From: a virus
Strand: one strand, 5' to 3'
DNA: 21,635 bases
IMG/VR virus record: IMGVR_UViG_3300002460_000187
Coordinates: 4-21,638 of that record
The notes under the pieces are model-generated. The model made no database searches. It was given only the letters and a program-made list of their open reading frames with translations, and was not told where the DNA came from. The position numbers and the translations under genes were made by a program. Positions 236 to 6,984 of this stretch are shown here, piece by piece (the first letter of the stretch is position 1; the number at the start of each line of letters is the position of its first letter).

Positions 236-559
236 CTACGGTCTCCGGAGCCGGTACGCCTGGAGCTTGGTTCGGTGCCCCCTAGGAGCCGTGCTCTCCA
301 CCATCTGGCCGGTCCACGCCCATTCTTTGCTGGCAAACACGGCCGCCCGCCAGTTGGCGCTGCCGCCGCTGTCGTACTCGGGGTTCCGCTCAAGCCAGCG
401 CCTCACATCATTTCCGGAAACCGGGGCGTGGTCCCAGCCCAGCTCGAGCAGTCGGCTCCGGTAGAGTGCGGCCATCGCGTCCCGCAGGACCCGGAGGCGC
501 TGGCGATGCTGGACTTCATGGGCCTCGAAGACCATCTCGCGCTGCGCGGCTTCGGTCAT
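236..559 (-). CDS. Conserved-looking small phage protein, 107 aa, unknown function
   Basis: The start ATG overlaps the methyltransferase stop as ATGA (556-559), so the two are translationally coupled. The N-terminal 45 residues look helical and charged. The C-terminal half reads SGNDVRRWLERNP, then a spacer, then NWRAAVFASKEWAWTG and an ST-P-GH segment ending in basic and aromatic residues. I associate that arrangement (short helix, Asn-Trp, basic residues, TG, STxPxGH) with small phage proteins, possibly with a winged-helix DNA-binding fold, but I cannot name a family. It sits between a DNA methyltransferase and an HNH nuclease, so a DNA-metabolism role is plausible by context only. Confidence 0.8.
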   Translation of the reverse strand: MTEAAQREMVFEAHEVQHRQRLRVLRDAMAALYRSRLLELGWDHAPVSGNDVRRWLERNPEYDSGGSANWRAAVFASKEWAWTGQMVESTAPRGHRTKLQAYRLRRP

Positions 560-1551
560 AGCGCGATTTCCCGGCAGAGCAGCGGCCCGATCCGCTGGCG
601 GGCCAACGTCAGATACTTGGGATTCAGGTCAATGTAGATGGCGGCTCGACCATTGCCCGTGGCGACCTGAGCGACGGTCCCGCTGCCACCGAACGGGTCA
701 AGTACCATGTCACCAGGGGCGCTGCCCGCGAGGATGCAGCGGCGGGCCAACTCCTCGGGGAAGGTGGCGAAGTGCGCCTCGGGATAGGGCATAGTGGCAA
801 TTTCCCAGACGGAGCGGGCGTTGCGGGTGCCCGTTGTTTCGCCCGCCGCTTCCGCCGCATCCCGGCGCGCATTGAATCCAGCGTGCCGCCGAGCGTGGCC
901 GGCCCGTTTCCCGAGTGTCAGGGAGTTGCCATCATTGCGTCCCGCTCCCGGTTGGTTGCCACCGTTAGACTTGGCCGACCACGGCACGTTTAAGCTACCG
1001 GGTTCTGCGATCGCCTCTTGATCGTAGTAGTACCGCGCGGCCTTGGAGAACAGGAATACGTACTCATGCGCCTTCGTCGGCCGGTCGGTCACGCTTTCGG
1101 GCATCGGGTTAGGTTTCGACCAGATGATGTCCGAGCGCAGGTACCAGCCATCGGCACGGAGTGCGAAGGCCACCATCCAGGGGATGCCGATAAGGTCTTT
1201 CTCTTTCAGATCTCCACTCAAGGATGAGGGCCGCGCGGCCCGTTTGCCATTGGCTAGAGAACCTTGACCCACCACAGAGCGCCGGTCGCAGGGCCACGAT
1301 GACGCCCATTTATCTCCAAGGTTAAGCCAAAGCGTCCCGTCATTCCGCAGCACCCGCCGCACCTCGCGGAATACCTCGACCATCTTGCCCACATAGTCCT
1401 CGGGGCTGCGTTCAAGGCCGAGTTGGCCGACCACGCCGTAATCTCTTTGGCGCCAATAGGGGGGTGAAGTCACACAGGAGCGCACCGTCCTCTCGGGTAG
1501 TGTCTTGAGGACCGTAAGGGCATCCCCGCAGTAGAGCTGGGCATTCGTCAT
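556..1551 (-). CDS. Beta-class DNA methyltransferase (N6-adenine or N4-cytosine)
   Basis: The 331-residue protein transfers a methyl group from S-adenosylmethionine to an exocyclic amino group of DNA. The catalytic motif IV TSPPYW is at residues 28-33 and the AdoMet-binding motif DPFGGSGT at 285-292. The order IV then I defines the beta class (PF01555 type). The variable stretch around 170-260 is the likely target-recognition region. TSPPYW is compatible with N4-cytosine or N6-adenine modification, so the base is undecided. The start at 1549-1551 is preferred over an upstream in-frame ATG at 1573-1575: GGGAG lies 6 nt before it and it overlaps the preceding stop as ATGA. No restriction endonuclease is coupled to it, so it looks like an orphan enzyme that protects phage DNA. 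Confidence 0.95.
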   Translation of the reverse strand: MTNAQLYCGDALTVLKTLPERTVRSCVTSPPYWRQRDYGVVGQLGLERSPEDYVGKMVEVFREVRRVLRNDGTLWLNLGDKWASSWPCDRRSVVGQGSLANGKRAARPSSLSGDLKEKDLIGIPWMVAFALRADGWYLRSDIIWSKPNPMPESVTDRPTKAHEYVFLFSKAARYYYDQEAIAEPGSLNVPWSAKSNGGNQPGAGRNDGNSLTLGKRAGHARRHAGFNARRDAAEAAGETTGTRNARSVWEIATMPYPEAHFATFPEELARRCILAGSAPGDMVLDPFGGSGTVAQVATGNGRAAIYIDLNPKYLTLARQRIGPLLCREIAL

Positions 1552-1787
1552 GCCGGTCTCCCGCACCGCCGGCAACTCCGATGATCACCCCAGGAGACGA
1601 CACGCTGGCTCCCGCAATGGCCACAGCTGCCCGCGAAGACGCCTATGTCCGCCCGCAGCAACAGGAGCCCGCCCGTTTCGGGGCTTGCCCGGCCCACGTC
1701 CTCCGAGCGAATGATGGGAGGCCCCCGGAAGTTCCCCCGGACGTCGAAGGACGCAGCGATCCGTTGGCGGTTCTCAGCGCGATTCAT
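1548..1787 (-). CDS. Small zinc-ribbon protein, 79 aa
   Basis: Four cysteines, C55, C58, C72 and C75 (CGHC-x13-CRRC), form a two-knuckle zinc ribbon at the C-terminus, after a 50-residue head of no recognised family. The start at 1785-1787 has an excellent ribosome binding site, GGAGG with a 5-nt spacer. The stop overlaps the methyltransferase start as ATGA. Zinc ribbons of this size usually bind nucleic acid or a protein partner; which one cannot be told here. It could be an accessory or regulatory factor for the methyltransferase, but that is inference from coupling only. Confidence 0.85.
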   Translation of the reverse strand: MNRAENRQRIAASFDVRGNFRGPPIIRSEDVGRASPETGGLLLLRADIGVFAGSCGHCGSQRVVSWGDHRSCRRCGRPA

Positions 1788-1894
1788 CGTGTCCTCCGGT
1801 GAGCGGGATTCGGCGGGCATGCTGGGCTGTGTACCCTGTCCGGGGCTCCCACCGTGAAGTCGGTGATGGAGCAACCCAGCACGCCGCCGCTCAT
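1784..1894 (-). CDS. Possible 36-residue small protein filling the operon gap
   Basis: An ATG one base after the SSB-like stop (1896-1898) opens a 36-codon frame whose TGA overlaps the next gene's ATG as ATGA (1784-1787). This exactly fills what would otherwise be a 108-bp gap in a tightly coupled operon. The product is rich in Gly, Pro and Arg, has two cysteines, and matches no family I know. There is no strong ribosome binding site, so translation would depend on reinitiation after the upstream gene. The spacing favours a real gene; the composition is uninformative. Confidence 0.35.
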   Translation of the reverse strand: MSGGVLGCSITDFTVGAPDRVHSPACPPNPAHRRTR

Positions 1895-1895
1895 C

Positions 1896-2507
1896 TCAGA
1901 ACGGCAGATCATCATCCTCGTCGCCCGGGTCGTCGCCAATCGGAATGTCATCATCCACCGGCCGGAGCGTCTCCTTGCGATGCCGCGCCAGGGCGTCGGT
2001 ATATTGCTTCTTCTTGTCTTCCAGAAACTTCGGTCGCTCGTAGCCTTCCAACACCAGAGCGTCGGGCGACTCCATCGCCTTTGGCAGCGGCGAGATGGAG
2101 CGGACCTTGGCGAAATTGCGACCCCGCTTCGTAGTGACGTGCTCGACGGAAAGCAACCCCACTTGGCCCTGGAGTTTGTGGAGTGGGACACCGGCCTCCG
2201 CTTGCTGCGCGGTGTAGGACTTCCCACGCCATGATTCGAGGAACTTTCGGAGATTAGCCTTCTCGTTCATCGAGTTCGTCATCTCCACGGTCACCAAGGT
2301 CAGTTCATTCTCTACCCCTTGCGTCTCCCCGCTGGCGAACACCAGCGCGACCTTGTCCACCTCACGGGGATCGCTGCCGGGGAACTGCTCGACGTTCGTC
2401 CCGAGGTTCACTACGTCCACGCAGATCATGCTGAATTGCCCTTCGGAGTGGGGCTCGAACCCGCCCCCGGTGTCGCGAGCGGTTGTCGGATCAGGACGCT
2501 GGGTCAT
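1896..2507 (-). CDS. Phage single-stranded DNA-binding (SSB-like) protein
   Basis: The 203-residue protein ends in an acidic tail, residues about 183-203, finishing DDDLPF. This is the hallmark C-terminal tip of bacterial SSB (DDDIPF in E. coli), which recruits replication and repair enzymes. The body (about 25-165) shows beta-rich segments, then a helical segment with NEKANLRKFLESWRGK, then a second beta-rich segment with VEHVTTKRGRNFAKV. I associate that pattern with a phage OB-fold-like family distinct from cellular SSB. It probably coats single-stranded DNA during phage replication or recombination. A GGGAGG sits about 11 nt upstream of the ATG. It is followed, going left, by the Zn-ribbon and methyltransferase genes and preceded by the Gp157-family gene, a typical early replication and recombination cluster. 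Confidence 0.82.
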   Translation of the reverse strand: MTQRPDPTTARDTGGGFEPHSEGQFSMICVDVVNLGTNVEQFPGSDPREVDKVALVFASGETQGVENELTLVTVEMTNSMNEKANLRKFLESWRGKSYTAQQAEAGVPLHKLQGQVGLLSVEHVTTKRGRNFAKVRSISPLPKAMESPDALVLEGYERPKFLEDKKKQYTDALARHRKETLRPVDDDIPIGDDPGDEDDDLPF

Positions 2508-2529
2508 AGTGGTCGTTGCCTCCCGTTGT

Positions 2530-3030
2530 TCAGGAAATCCTCAGGTGCCGCCCATGGTCTACGATGAACCCCATCGGCAACGTGCCAGCCTTGAAGTCTG
2601 CGTAAGCCTTCTGCCCATCCAGGCTCACCGTCACCCGCTGGTAGCCCTCGGGAATCGGAAGCGTATCGGGCCACTGAATCGAGGGGCGACTGTTCTTTTG
2701 TATCCGCACCACGACCAACGGCGTTTCCACCTTGGGCTTCTCCACCCGGTCCAGCTGCGCCATCAAGTAGCCCTTCAAGCCCTCGGCTCCCTGTCGGCGG
2801 GTACGGGCCAATGTCGCCAACCGGGCGGCTTCCGCATCGGCCGCATCAGCCGTCAGCAGCAAGTTGCAGATGTAGAGCGCCACCCGCTCCACCTTCGCCT
2901 CGAAGGCCCCCTCGATGGCATCAAGATCCGCAGCCAGTTCGGGCGTGAGCTCGCCGCCGTTCTCGATCAACGCCTCGGCGATCTGCTCGTAGGTATCGGC
3001 GAGTTGGTAGAGTTTCAGTGTCACCCCCAT
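2530..3030 (-). CDS. Siphovirus Gp157-family protein
   Basis: The 166-residue product has the Gp157 layout (PF05565): MxxTLKLYQLADTYEQI at the N-terminus, an acidic helix, a long coiled coil (about 45-105), and then the conserved block KVETPLVVVRIQKN followed by a short beta-rich end. Members are common in siphovirus early regions next to SSB and recombination genes; the biochemical role is not established, and an older link to phage resistance in Streptococcus is only suggestive. An upstream in-frame GTG (3160-3162) would add 44 residues unlike the family. The ATG at 3028-3030 is preferred because it has AGGA about 5 nt upstream and starts where the family starts. Confidence 0.9.
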   Translation of the reverse strand: MGVTLKLYQLADTYEQIAEALIENGGELTPELAADLDAIEGAFEAKVERVALYICNLLLTADAADAEAARLATLARTRRQGAEGLKGYLMAQLDRVEKPKVETPLVVVRIQKNSRPSIQWPDTLPIPEGYQRVTVSLDGQKAYADFKAGTLPMGFIVDHGRHLRIS

Positions 3031-3140
3031 CGGTTCCTGCCTTTCGTCCCACGGTTCAGATCCCGTCCATTCGCGGGCCGTGCGGGCCTCGGCTTCTTGT
3101 CGCGTCTCGCGCCGCAGACCCAAGAGCGGCCGATCCGCCC
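3031..3140. other. 110-bp gap without a convincing gene
   Basis: Between the small membrane gene and the Gp157 gene the only open frame is the upstream extension of Gp157 itself. Its residues are charged (R, E, W rich) and lack an ATG start after the membrane-protein stop. I see no promoter or terminator here. Confidence 0.4.
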
Positions 3141-4905: not shown

Positions 4906-4934
4906 TTGACAATACGTTGCGACGGGCCTATACT
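4906..4934 (+). promoter_or_regulatory. Sigma70-type promoter for the rightward operon
   Basis: The -35 box TTGACA (4906-4911) is a perfect consensus. A 17-bp spacer leads to the -10 box TATACT (4929-4934), which matches TATAAT at 5 of 6 positions. Transcription should start near 4941 and give a leader of about 40 nt before the ATG at 4979, with AAAGGAGG (4967-4974) as the ribosome binding site. Confidence 0.82.
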
Positions 4935-4958
4935 ATGGCCCCGTAGAGGTCCTGTCAA
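4930..4958 (-). promoter_or_regulatory. Sigma70-type promoter for the leftward early operon
   Basis: On the minus strand TTGACA (4953-4958) is followed after 17 bp by TAGTAT (4930-4935), which matches the -10 consensus at 4 of 6 positions. The predicted start, near 4923, leaves about 36 nt before the GTG start at 4887. It is weaker than the rightward promoter and overlaps it, so the two should compete. Confidence 0.6.
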
Positions 4959-4978: not shown

Positions 4979-5749
4979 ATGCCAAAGCCTAGAGCAAAGG
5001 AGACCGAGGTTCAAATCCTAGAACTGGAACGCGGCCAGATTCAGGTAGCGGCGGTCGGCACCACTCCGTTCATCTGCAACCGGGTGAGCGAGAAGGCGAA
5101 GCGCGAACTCCTCGCCCCCAAGGGCCGCAAGACCAGCGCGGAGAAGGCACAGAACCTCAAGCACGTCCCGCTGGAGGAATACCGACTCTCTCCATACACC
5201 ATCCCTGACGACACCGCCCCAACACTATTGGCGTTCCTGGCAGCGGGTTTCAAGCGGGCGATGATGACCGCCGCCCTGGACATTCCTGGAGCCAAGAAGG
5301 CGCAGATCGGCCGGTTGGTTCGCGTGGCTGGCGAGCGCATCCCACTCTACGGGTTGCCGAAGTTGCTCATGAGCGTGACCCGTTCGGCAGACATGAACCG
5401 AACGCCCGACATTCGGACCCGCGCCATCGTGCCTCAGTGGGCCGTGCTGCTGGAAGTCACCTTCGCCAAGCCCATGCTCCGTGAGAAGTCGGTGTTGAAC
5501 CTACTCGCTGCGGCCGGCGTGGTCTCAGGCGTCGGGGACTGGCGCGTCGAGAAAGGCTCAGGCGACTATGGCGCGTTCCGGTTGGCGAGCGCCAACGATC
5601 CCGAGCTACAGCAGATTCTCGCCACCGGCGGGCGCACTGCCCAACAGCAGGCCCTCAATAACCCGGTCTGCTATGACGATGAAACGGAATCCCTGCTCTC
5701 TTGGTGGAACAGCGAGATGGCGGAGCGGGGCTTCAAGGTGGCCGTATGA
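4979..5749 (+). CDS. Phage protein of unknown function, 256 aa, with a Gly-rich loop (RAMP-like pattern, unproven)
   Basis: The start is certain: AAAGGAGG precedes the ATG by 4 nt, behind a near-consensus promoter. After a basic head, residues 20-45 read as a beta strand with GTTPFICNRVSEKAKREL. The middle holds an alpha/beta region (80-130). A final strand (WAVLLEVTF, about 154-162) and helix lead to GVGDWRVEKGSG (184-195) and a short strand, GAFRL. The GxG-x6-GxG loop near the C-terminus, after an N-terminal strand, recalls the glycine-rich loop of RAMP/Cas7-type ferredoxin-like RNA-binding proteins. That is pattern recognition only; no fold was computed. I recall related proteins in other phage early regions, all uncharacterised. 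It is the first of two coupled genes directly upstream of the GG-periodic tract. Confidence 0.9.
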   Translation: MPKPRAKETEVQILELERGQIQVAAVGTTPFICNRVSEKAKRELLAPKGRKTSAEKAQNLKHVPLEEYRLSPYTIPDDTAPTLLAFLAAGFKRAMMTAALDIPGAKKAQIGRLVRVAGERIPLYGLPKLLMSVTRSADMNRTPDIRTRAIVPQWAVLLEVTFAKPMLREKSVLNLLAAAGVVSGVGDWRVEKGSGDYGAFRLASANDPELQQILATGGRTAQQQALNNPVCYDDETESLLSWWNSEMAERGFKVAV

Positions 5750-6210
5750 AGCACAAGCACACGCAAGAGATCGCCCGAAGGCTGGAAGCGCTCTACCGCC
5801 AGCATGGCGAATTGACGCCAACCCTCGTAGTGGAGGACGCCCGCGACCCGGAATCGCCCCTGCATTCGCACTTCGAGTGGGACGATTCCGCCGCCGCCGA
5901 ACGGTTCCGCCGAATGCAGGCGCGCCGACTGCTGGCCTCCGTGGAAGTGCTCATCCAAGTCAACCGGGTGAAGGTGGCTACCGTCGCCTACGTCCGAGAC
6001 CCCGACAAGGCACCGCGTGAGCAGGGATATACCGCAGTCGGGGAACTGCGCCAGGACGCCGAACGCGCCAAGGCGGCACTGCAATACGAGTTGCGCCGAA
6101 TAGCCGCATCCCTGGAACGCGCGCGTCGGCTCGCACTGGCCCTGGGGCTGGCCAAGGAAGTGGACTCACTGCTGGATGAGATTGAGCACCTGCGTCAGCA
6201 GGCGGCCTGA
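5746..6210 (+). CDS. Conserved-looking phage protein, 154 aa, helical, unknown function
   Basis: The ATG overlaps the preceding stop as ATGA (5746-5749). Residues 20-50 contain ELTPTLVVEDARDPESPLHS followed by HFEWDD, a block I associate with phage proteins of unknown function, and they are followed by basic and aromatic residues. The C-terminal half (about 100-154) is a long charged helix (LRQDAERAKAALQYELRRI and onward) suited to coiled-coil assembly. There are no membrane segments or zinc sites. It is coupled to the Gly-rich-loop protein and ends 27 bp before the GG-periodic tract, so the two proteins and the tract may form one functional unit. An in-frame ATG 15 codons upstream, inside the previous gene, is not favoured. 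Confidence 0.88.
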   Translation: MKHKHTQEIARRLEALYRQHGELTPTLVVEDARDPESPLHSHFEWDDSAAAERFRRMQARRLLASVEVLIQVNRVKVATVAYVRDPDKAPREQGYTAVGELRQDAERAKAALQYELRRIAASLERARRLALALGLAKEVDSLLDEIEHLRQQAA

Positions 6211-6237
6211 TACCGCCACGATAGACAAGACGAGGCA

Positions 6238-6629
6238 GGCAAGGTCCGGCGGTTACCGGAGAAGCCCGATGAGGTCGCCTCTGGCACGGGATGGCGAGTT
6301 GGTATGAGGTTGCGTGAGGTGAGGAGCGGTGTGGCGGGTGGGGCGACGAGTGGATGGGTACGGCTTGGCGTCTCGCAGACTGACGAGGCGCAACGAGACA
6401 CGGTAAGCATTGGTGTGGTCCGGTTGGGCGGGCCCGGATTGGTCGGCTACGGACCGGAGCCATCTGGAGAGAAGTGGTTGGGCGGGTACGGTTGGGCTGC
6501 ATTAGGCGTATCCCGGATTGCGATGGAGTGGCCGCCTTTGGCGGGCTGGGATTGGCACGGCATCCAGCGATCAGGCGAGGTTTGATGGGATCAGGCTAGG
6601 CTGGTGCGACCGGGAGCGATGTGGACAGG
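6238..6629 (+). repeat. Noncoding tract with GG every 5 nt (pentanucleotide periodicity)
   Basis: On the plus strand GG recurs on a 5-nt grid. The grid phase holds within blocks and slips by one base (a 4-nt step) near 6333-6337, 6427-6431, 6481-6485, 6540-6544 and 6599-6603. Counting by eye, about 53 of 80 grid positions are GG, against roughly one in ten expected by base composition. The bases between the GGs are not conserved, so this is not a simple tandem repeat. Period 5 conflicts with codon periodicity, so the constraint acts on DNA or RNA, not protein. It fills the gap between convergent genes and would be transcribed as a G-rich 3' segment of the rightward operon. Weaker GG spacing continues to about 6700. 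Confidence 0.85.
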
Positions 6630-6705
6630 CTTCGACGACGTGTCGACGAGGTCGCGTATCATGGGGTTAGTCGGAGTCAGGCGTGGCAGGCCTGGACGGG
6701 CGCGA

Positions 6706-6731
6706 GCGGCGGCTAGGCAACTAGCCGCCGC
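6706..6731. terminator. Strong hairpin at the convergent gene ends (terminator-like, no T-run)
   Basis: GCGGCGGCTAG (6706-6716) and CTAGCCGCCGC (6721-6731) form a perfect 11-bp stem closed on the plus strand by GCAA, a GNRA-type tetraloop. It overlaps the last codons and stop of the SWIM gene on the minus strand and marks the end of the GG tract on the plus strand. No U-run follows on either strand, so it may be a Rho-independent terminator lacking its tail, a 3'-end stabilising hairpin, or a block to read-through of the rightward transcript into the antisense of the SWIM gene. Confidence 0.5.
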
Positions 6732-6958
6732 AGTTCCTTGATGGCTTCCCCATTCCCTTCATGTAGTAAGCTGATAATCTGGTGCTTGCACAAGGCACCC
6801 CGGTAGCGGGCATCTTGGCAATCGCAGGGCTCTATCTCATCTAGAGTGACGATGTGTTGGCAGGCTCCGCCCCAGACGCGCCAGCGGGGCCTGTAGTCGG
6901 CAATCCGTTCCGCGTCGAGAAGTAGGGCCCTCCGTAGTCGGCCTTCGTCTATTCGCAT
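6713..6958 (-). CDS. Small SWIM-type zinc-finger protein, 81 aa
   Basis: The SWIM signature CxC-xn-CxH is present as C45-D-C47, nine residues, then C57-K-H59, within EPCDCQDARYRGALCKHQI. The N-terminal 40 residues supply the usual beta-rich lead-in (YRPRWRVWGGACQHIVTL) and a helix follows. SWIM domains bind DNA or proteins and coordinate one zinc. The ATG at 6956-6958 is chosen because GGGGGAC precedes it by 5 nt and because the predicted promoter would start transcription near 6978, downstream of the in-frame ATG at 6980-6982. The gene faces the GG tract and ends inside a strong hairpin. It appears to be transcribed on its own, unlike the coupled blocks on either side. Confidence 0.85.
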   Translation of the reverse strand: MRIDEGRLRRALLLDAERIADYRPRWRVWGGACQHIVTLDEIEPCDCQDARYRGALCKHQIISLLHEGNGEAIKELRRLVA

Positions 6959-6984
6959 ACTGTCCCCCGGAGAGGACACCATGC

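Follow-up and report, generated by a model that had tools for sequence, protein, structure and literature searches.

A GG-periodic tract beside a vipr-vap gene pair in a virus record is very probably a guide-RNA array of a phage VIPR system

The window, by which is meant the whole 21.6-kb virus record that was analysed, carries a minimal VIPR locus layout. A vipr gene and a vap-like gene form a pair (4979-6210) that is kept in relatives, and a long intergenic region (6238-6731) follows. VIPR stands for Viral Interference Programmable Repeat. A bioRxiv preprint of 2026 describes the phage systems of this name as consisting of the protein Vipr, the accessory protein Vap, and vrRNAs made of GGY/NN repeats (PMC13142463). 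The main features of the window locus are the following.

4906-4934, plus strand: promoter-like site TTGACA-17-TATACT, 45 bp upstream of vipr (11/12 matches in a consensus scan)
4979-5749, plus strand: vipr, encoding a 256-aa Cas7-like RAMP protein, a putative guide-RNA binder (PHROG 4652, structure model)
5746-6210, plus strand: putative vap (accessory), 154 aa (PHROG 15946); its start overlaps the vipr stop, and it lies beside vipr in relatives
6238-6703, plus strand: very probable vrRNA array of 94 GGYNN-like repeats, 60 of them with GG; no ORF of its own is required
6706-6731, no strand assigned: perfect 11-bp hairpin (GCGGCGGCTAG/CTAGCCGCCGC) immediately behind the array, where the convergent gene 6713-6982 ends

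Three promoter-like sites were present in the scanned region against 0.5 expected, although consensus matches of this kind carry no functional evidence. Just upstream of vipr, at 4906-4958, such sites overlap on both strands (TTGACA-17-TATACT on the plus strand and TTGACA-17-TAGTAT on the minus strand). The overlapping, opposed arrangement suggests a control region from which vipr and the leftward genes are read divergently. An N4/N6 DNA methyltransferase and a Gp157/Mu Gam-like end-protection protein are encoded at 556-3117 on the minus strand. Beyond the array lies a convergent 89-aa gene (6713-6982, minus strand) with a weak SWIM zinc-finger match (E 0.0025), whose last codons make up one arm of the hairpin. 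The hairpin could possibly mark a transcription end; no T-tract terminator was found. No tandem identical repeats, spacers or cas genes other than the Cas7-like one, which would indicate CRISPR, were seen in the window, and the neighbours that were tested are ordinary phage genes.

What does vipr encode? Pfam and NCBIfam gave zero matches for its product. The product falls in PHROG 4652 (E 4.6e-13), and the Vipr of Escherichia phage SUSP1 falls in the same PHROG (E 1.4e-96). A comparison with solved structures returned one match of interest, a faint one to 36pp, the 'SUSP1 Vipr protein'. Profile searches of the whole PDB made this match firm, reaching 36pp and no other sequence (E 6.6e-6 and 8e-9), and hhalign aligned the family with SUSP1 Vipr at an E of 7.4e-10. 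Further evidence comes from an AlphaFold2 model built from 62 relatives (pLDDT 83.8), whose best structural matches were the Csm3/Cas7 subunits of type III CRISPR complexes. The predicted fold aligned with these subunits at VIA-align Z values of up to 8.0 over ~155 residues, and full-model TM-scores were low (0.3-0.4). The structural values are modest taken alone, but they are in line with the sequence evidence for Vipr. The window family and SUSP1 also have in common a G-rich stretch, GVGDWRxEKGxG, near the C-terminal end of Vipr, a candidate counterpart of the glycine-rich loop of RAMP proteins. By sequence and predicted structure, the window protein has the Vipr-family RAMP/RRM fold and is homologous to the known Vipr. 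The vap product had no Pfam match, and its NCBIfam matches were weak and far below cut-off.

The first-pass annotation of this DNA had reported GG at about two thirds of the positions on a 5-nt grid in 6238-6629, with about five one-base slips. Both observations were borne out by counting: 53 of 80 grid units (66%) start with GG, and there are exactly five 4-nt steps (6333, 6422, 6476, 6540, and 6599) and zero 6-nt steps. The mean step, estimated by eye at near 4.94 nt, coincides with the Fourier peak of GG over 6201-6720, which has a period of 4.94 nt and a power of 27.7 (best of 200 dinucleotide-preserving shuffles, 13.9). The autocorrelation at lag 5 was 35, compared to a mean of 14.7 and a maximum of 25 in 500 shuffles. 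A tract segmentation score of 47.4 likewise stood far above 1000 shuffles (mean 7.5, sd 2.0, maximum 18.3), and the rest of the window, on both strands, stayed at or below 7.2, which shows that the periodicity is not a general property of this genome. The annotation's further claim, that selection acts on the regular spacing of GG, is upheld. The signal becomes weaker but persists to ~6703, and one more 4-nt step, the sixth, falls at 6685. Rfam recognized zero families in the window, and Tandem Repeats Finder found zero arrays there because the repeats are too divergent.

The third base of the GG repeats is C in 21, T in 17, A in 13, and G in 3 cases. It avoids G, and the motif is therefore GGY-like. 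Two of the slips fit better five bases later, where the sequence is read as GGTTG GGCG. After this re-placing, the junctions from 6333 to 6599 are 94, 54, 59, and 59 nt apart, and the units that they delimit contain 10-11 repeats plus the 4-mer (A, B, and C) or 18-19 repeats (Z and Y).

Is this kind of tract found elsewhere? The annotation had given, as an unverified impression, that comparable GG tracts occur in other phages; they do, and they adjoin the same two genes. Searching with the window protein and with its family yielded 82 related loci, a few of which were contigs fetched earlier; another profile for locus searching, A1, was dropped as too diverse. A GG array of the same kind was present in 75 of the 82. 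As a positive control, the scanner recovered two vrRNA repeat runs in the SUSP1 locus when its threshold was lowered to 7. The array lies on the vipr strand in 101 of 101 segments (relatives, the window, and four named phages). Over these segments, steps of 5 nt numbered 7500 and steps of 4 nt 645, followed by 49 of 3 nt, 18 of 6 nt, and 9 of 7 nt. The 4-nt junctions of relatives are mostly GGCA or GGCG and mostly 8-12 repeats apart. Arrays of Gordonia, Mycobacterium, and cyanobacterial phages are nearly perfect in GG. The window array is noisy, with a GG fraction of 0.64-0.66, but it is inside the observed range, as several relatives have 0.8-0.97 and several others 0.52-0.66. A second, shorter array was seen directly upstream of vipr in L036, L061, L065, L069, L079, and others, so that the gene pair has an array on either side in those relatives.

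The bases between the GG motifs had been described as varying freely. This description does not hold, since every fourth and fifth base forms a guide dinucleotide (NN), and the dinucleotides decode to target genes. The code was tested by searching all nine-dinucleotide stretches from the arrays of relatives in phage and prophage contigs totalling 1.18 Mb. When one target base was skipped between dinucleotides, the relatives' guides gave 3 exact and 84 one-mismatch matches. Skips of 0, 2, 3, and 4 bases each gave 0 exact and 6-9 one-mismatch matches. Many of the skip-1 matches are one gene in related contigs, and the 84 are thus not independent events. Loci L109-L228, which were retrieved via unit C, are a selected, prophage-rich set, and the guides in the 1.18-Mb test came from other arrays. 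On vipr-flanking DNA alone, where the arrays were incompletely masked, skip 1 was in only weak excess (11 one-mismatch matches versus 5-8), which tells little about the code. The skip-3 matches in that test probably come from unmasked array stretches, because 3 is the array's own step.

Most skip-1 matches lie in the frame that places the skipped base at the codon wobble position. The genes matched by relatives' guides encode Sak4-like and RecT-like annealing proteins, a RuvC-like resolvase, and two nameless phage families. Guides of several relatives (L091/L092, L102, L095-L097, and L100) converge on one Sak4-like recombination gene at different positions. Moreover, TA is depleted among the NN dinucleotides of 352 non-redundant units (165 versus 214 expected; 0 of 2000 permutations), as is expected for dinucleotides of the first two codon bases. 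As read from these sequence comparisons, guides and DNA targets agree at the NN bases when one target base is skipped, and the skipped base is mostly the wobble base. The earlier statement that no codon constraint produces such a pattern is right for the spacing, but what the variable bases hold is codon positions one and two of target genes. With this code, the array can be divided and read as follows.

6238-6336, plus strand: guide unit Z, decoding to KPGPDPDRLTIDGDWDDAV; probable target a small GPxPD...IEGDWEEAV protein
6333-6336, plus strand: junction 4-mer GGCG (one-base register slip)
6337-6430, plus strand: guide unit Y, decoding to GDVWTFVALDADTK[FL]VP; predicted target an IS1-type transposase
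6427-6430, plus strand: junction 4-mer GGCG
6431-6484, plus strand: guide unit A (CC TT CG AC CC GC CT GA GT TG); no convincing target
6481-6484, plus strand: junction 4-mer GGCG
6485-6543, plus strand: guide unit B, antisense decode NRTIKGTYHHV; no convincing target
6540-6543, plus strand: junction 4-mer GGCG
6544-6602, plus strand: guide unit C, decoding to [CW]FTIAHE[LF]GHY, an ImmA/IrrE metalloprotease active-site motif
6599-6602, plus strand: junction 4-mer GGCT
6603-6703, plus strand: degenerate 3' part of the array, with the final junction GGCA at 6685-6688

Unit C, whose full reading is [CW]-[FL]-T-[IM]-A-[HQ]-[DE]-[FL]-G-[HQ]-Y, gives the clearest result. Its 16-base gapped pattern had at least 120 matches in IMG/VR, compared to 8 for unit A and 8 for unit B. 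The frame was the wobble frame in 79 of 80 examined matches, and the HExxH motif TIAHE(L/F)GH was present in nearly all. Ten of the 11 dinucleotides fit in 47 of 120 among the matches listed, the first repeat (TG) being the misfit. The sole Pfam match of the decoded peptide was Peptidase_M78 (ImmA/IrrE; E 0.024). For such peptide queries plausible residues were chosen at ambiguous codons, and the Peptidase_M78 match was repeated without the undecoded first residue. The stretch 6544-6602 has the appearance of a coding sequence of 3-nt period written into 5-nt repeats, and nothing was seen that would betray a mechanism of guide acquisition.

Unit Y points to a transposase. Its 26-base gapped pattern, with up to 3 mismatches allowed, matched 5 times in 395 genomes of the phylum of L029, and the reversed control matched 0 times. 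All five matches are one transposase family and are in frame, and both of the two that were tested contain DDE_Tnp_IS1. The only tblastn match was an annotated 'IS1 family transposase' in Acidiphilium. The unit was absent from viral contigs, from a tblastn search of phages, and from 395 genomes of another phylum.

For unit Z, 13 of 19 dinucleotides fit a 52-aa frame, GPKPDSVKIEGDWEEAV, in L233, in the wobble frame; its target is probably the small GPxPD...IEGDWEEAV protein. A tblastn search of plasmids with unit Z was negative. Three of its five IMG/VR matches lie in one unrelated DNA polymerase-like gene with little match beyond the searched core, and in a fourth (L229) only the searched core fits; these were set aside. 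The 8 IMG/VR matches of unit A belong to no single gene family. One of them, a SNF2-type helicase gene (L013:2700-2722, minus strand), fits 10 of 10 dinucleotides, but its skip falls at codon position 1 and it stands alone among unrelated matches, and it is probably due to chance. The IMG/VR matches of unit B are at background level. Its genome search gave 5 matches versus 3 in the control with no common gene family, and tblastn gave zero; an IS1595-type transposase, considered as its target, was unsupported by the genome and IMG/VR matches.

The NN bases of repeats that lack GG still fit the decoded targets (in unit C, the repeats CCAGC, GATCA, and GATGG). No decoded unit had a complete match to known sequence, the best being the 10 of 11 dinucleotides of unit C. 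The targets read in this way are competing phages and mobile elements, namely ImmA/IrrE-type proteins in viral contigs, IS1 transposases, and Sak4, RecT, and RuvC genes.

How do these findings compare with what is known of VIPR? The preprint text describes a vrRNA as 9-16 GGY/NN tandem repeats whose NN bases pair with DNA, one target base being skipped between pairs (PMC13142463). The systems tested were SUSP1 and P. fulva, and for SUSP1 the expression of vrRNAs, their binding, and the repression of targets were demonstrated (PMC13142463). The window system belongs to VIPR, as its protein is of the Vipr family, its array is of the GGY/NN kind, and its code skips one base. We therefore regard the tract as very probably a vrRNA, that is, guide-RNA, array.

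The window and the SUSP1 system (type II; L027) share the Vipr PHROG, the GVGDWR motif, a short vipr-vap pair, an adjoining GGYNN repeat RNA, the 1-nt skip code, and targets in competing elements. They differ in layout. The vrRNAs of SUSP1 are four distinct units of ~100 nt that each end in a structured 3' tail, whereas in the window there is one continuous array in which only one-base slips separate the guides. No SUSP1-type 3' tails were seen in the window array, whose units are directly adjacent. The preprint describes the conserved structured tail for the SUSP1 clade and mentions other array designs for other types (PMC13142463), so that the missing tails argue against the SUSP1 design and not against VIPR. 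The window Vipr is also longer (256 aa, with a C-terminal extension, compared to 195 aa), and the window accessory protein (PHROG 15946) is unrelated to SUSP1 vap (PHROG 5926; vap1 of type II), hhalign finding no similarity between the families (probability 0.2%). The window locus is thus a new VIPR member with a design other than that of SUSP1.

Gordonia phages ODay and UmaThurman, Mycobacterium phage Saal, and cyanophage Cy-LDV1 (L007-L010) resemble the window in having vipr and vap-like genes and a slip-punctuated GGYNN array, with GGCA as the junction. Unlike the window, they have a much cleaner GG backbone and a vipr without the C-terminal extension, and their genes are annotated as hypothetical. 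'Staggered arrays with overlapping vrRNAs' are named among the designs in fig. S18 of the preprint (PMC13142463); compared by name only, the slip-punctuated, tail-less array of the window may be one of these. Cas7/Csm3 effector subunits of class 1 CRISPR are alike in fold and in the logic of an RNA-coating filament, but there 5 of 6 bases pair, compared to 2 of 3 in the window.

Sites of TRAP (trp RNA-binding attenuation protein) are short G-containing motifs 2-3 bases apart. They differ from the window array in number (11 repeats versus ~94) and in that the variable bases of the window carry a code.

Could the array be a decayed one, descended from a working system but degenerating and no longer functional in this copy? 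Only 60 of 94 repeats have GG, which is noisier than in the Gordonia and Mycobacterium arrays and makes partial decay possible; the GG fraction lies below the 0.8-0.97 of several relatives, and the 3' end of the array is ragged. However, vipr and vap are intact, the GVGDWR motif is conserved, several relatives are equally low in GG (0.52-0.66), and units C, Y, and Z decode through non-GG repeats. Loss of function is thus an unlikely state of this copy, though one that retains some weight.

The remaining readings do not treat the tract as a set of guides. GG every 5 nt is compatible with a short G-quadruplex motif, and GGN3 repeats might fold as two-tier G-quadruplexes or another regular structure. 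The minimum free energy of the array-region RNA is unremarkable (z = -0.6, by a method that does not score quadruplexes), which speaks against the regularly folding G-rich RNA suggested earlier. A structured RNA or DNA element would also leave the NN code and the 4-nt slips unexplained, and we consider it very improbable. Equally improbable is the reading that the tract is a DNA site for a repeating protein (a packaging, origin, or partition signal) that is not read as RNA. It is intergenic and adjoins two conserved genes, as such a site might, but the array strand is tied to vipr in all 101 segments and the variable bases spell the coding sequence of other elements. The packaging or recombination signal proposed in the first-pass annotation is likewise rejected. 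Finally, a 93-aa open frame at 6304-6585 might suggest that the tract is protein-coding. The array is G-rich and TA-poor, so open frames arise in it by chance; the period of 5 runs across codons and the variable bases decode otherwise, making this reading extremely improbable.

What computation shows here is the array and its occurrence in relatives, the fold of Vipr, and a wobble code with one skipped base. How would such a guide array act? It follows vipr and vap on their strand and is probably read from the promoter of these genes; the promoter-like site at 4906-4934 could start a transcript that covers all three. Each 5-nt repeat of the RNA would be coated by one Vipr subunit. Among the explanations first offered for the spacing was a nucleic-acid-binding protein with a 5-nt footprint; this one fits, and the Cas7/Csm3-like fold predicted for Vipr agrees with it. 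GGY would be the protein-binding backbone, and the two bases that follow would pair with target DNA, one base being skipped between pairs. The skipped base is the wobble position, so a unit of ~10-12 repeats would read the first two codon bases of a target stretch. The decoded target changes at every slip, which indicates that a slip marks a guide boundary. One-base slips (4-nt GGCR/GGCT steps) would then separate successive guides, and processing may take place at them. The complex would silence or block a gene of the rival element, silencing having a precedent in the SUSP1 preprint. In the window, the guides would act on the ImmA/IrrE gene of a lysogeny module, on an IS1-type transposase gene, and on the gene of a small protein from a mobile element. 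Special RNA folding is neither needed nor seen.

A distinct design of this clade can be put forward tentatively, as an idea somewhat short of probable. The clade may make one transcript without tails, punctuated solely by a one-base contraction (GGCR for GGCNN) that breaks the register of Vipr so as to define or cut guides, some of them directed against IS1 in addition to lysogeny and recombination genes.

In the preprint that first described it in 2026, VIPR is presented as a possible CRISPR ancestor with a gapped guide code (PMC13142463). The window and ~80 related loci back the gapped code independently, from sequence alone, beyond SUSP1 and P. fulva. The array design makes guide boundaries readable, and the guides can be translated directly into motifs of target proteins. 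With ImmA/IrrE and an IS1-type transposase decoded in the window, and Sak4, RecT, and RuvC in relatives, the proposed war among mobile elements becomes directly testable. Among the relatives, guides of two different phages (L061:3369-3905 and L069:4339-4833) decode to nearly one peptide (TYWFSTVALGF and HTYWFSAVAAGF, respectively), which points to a common target.
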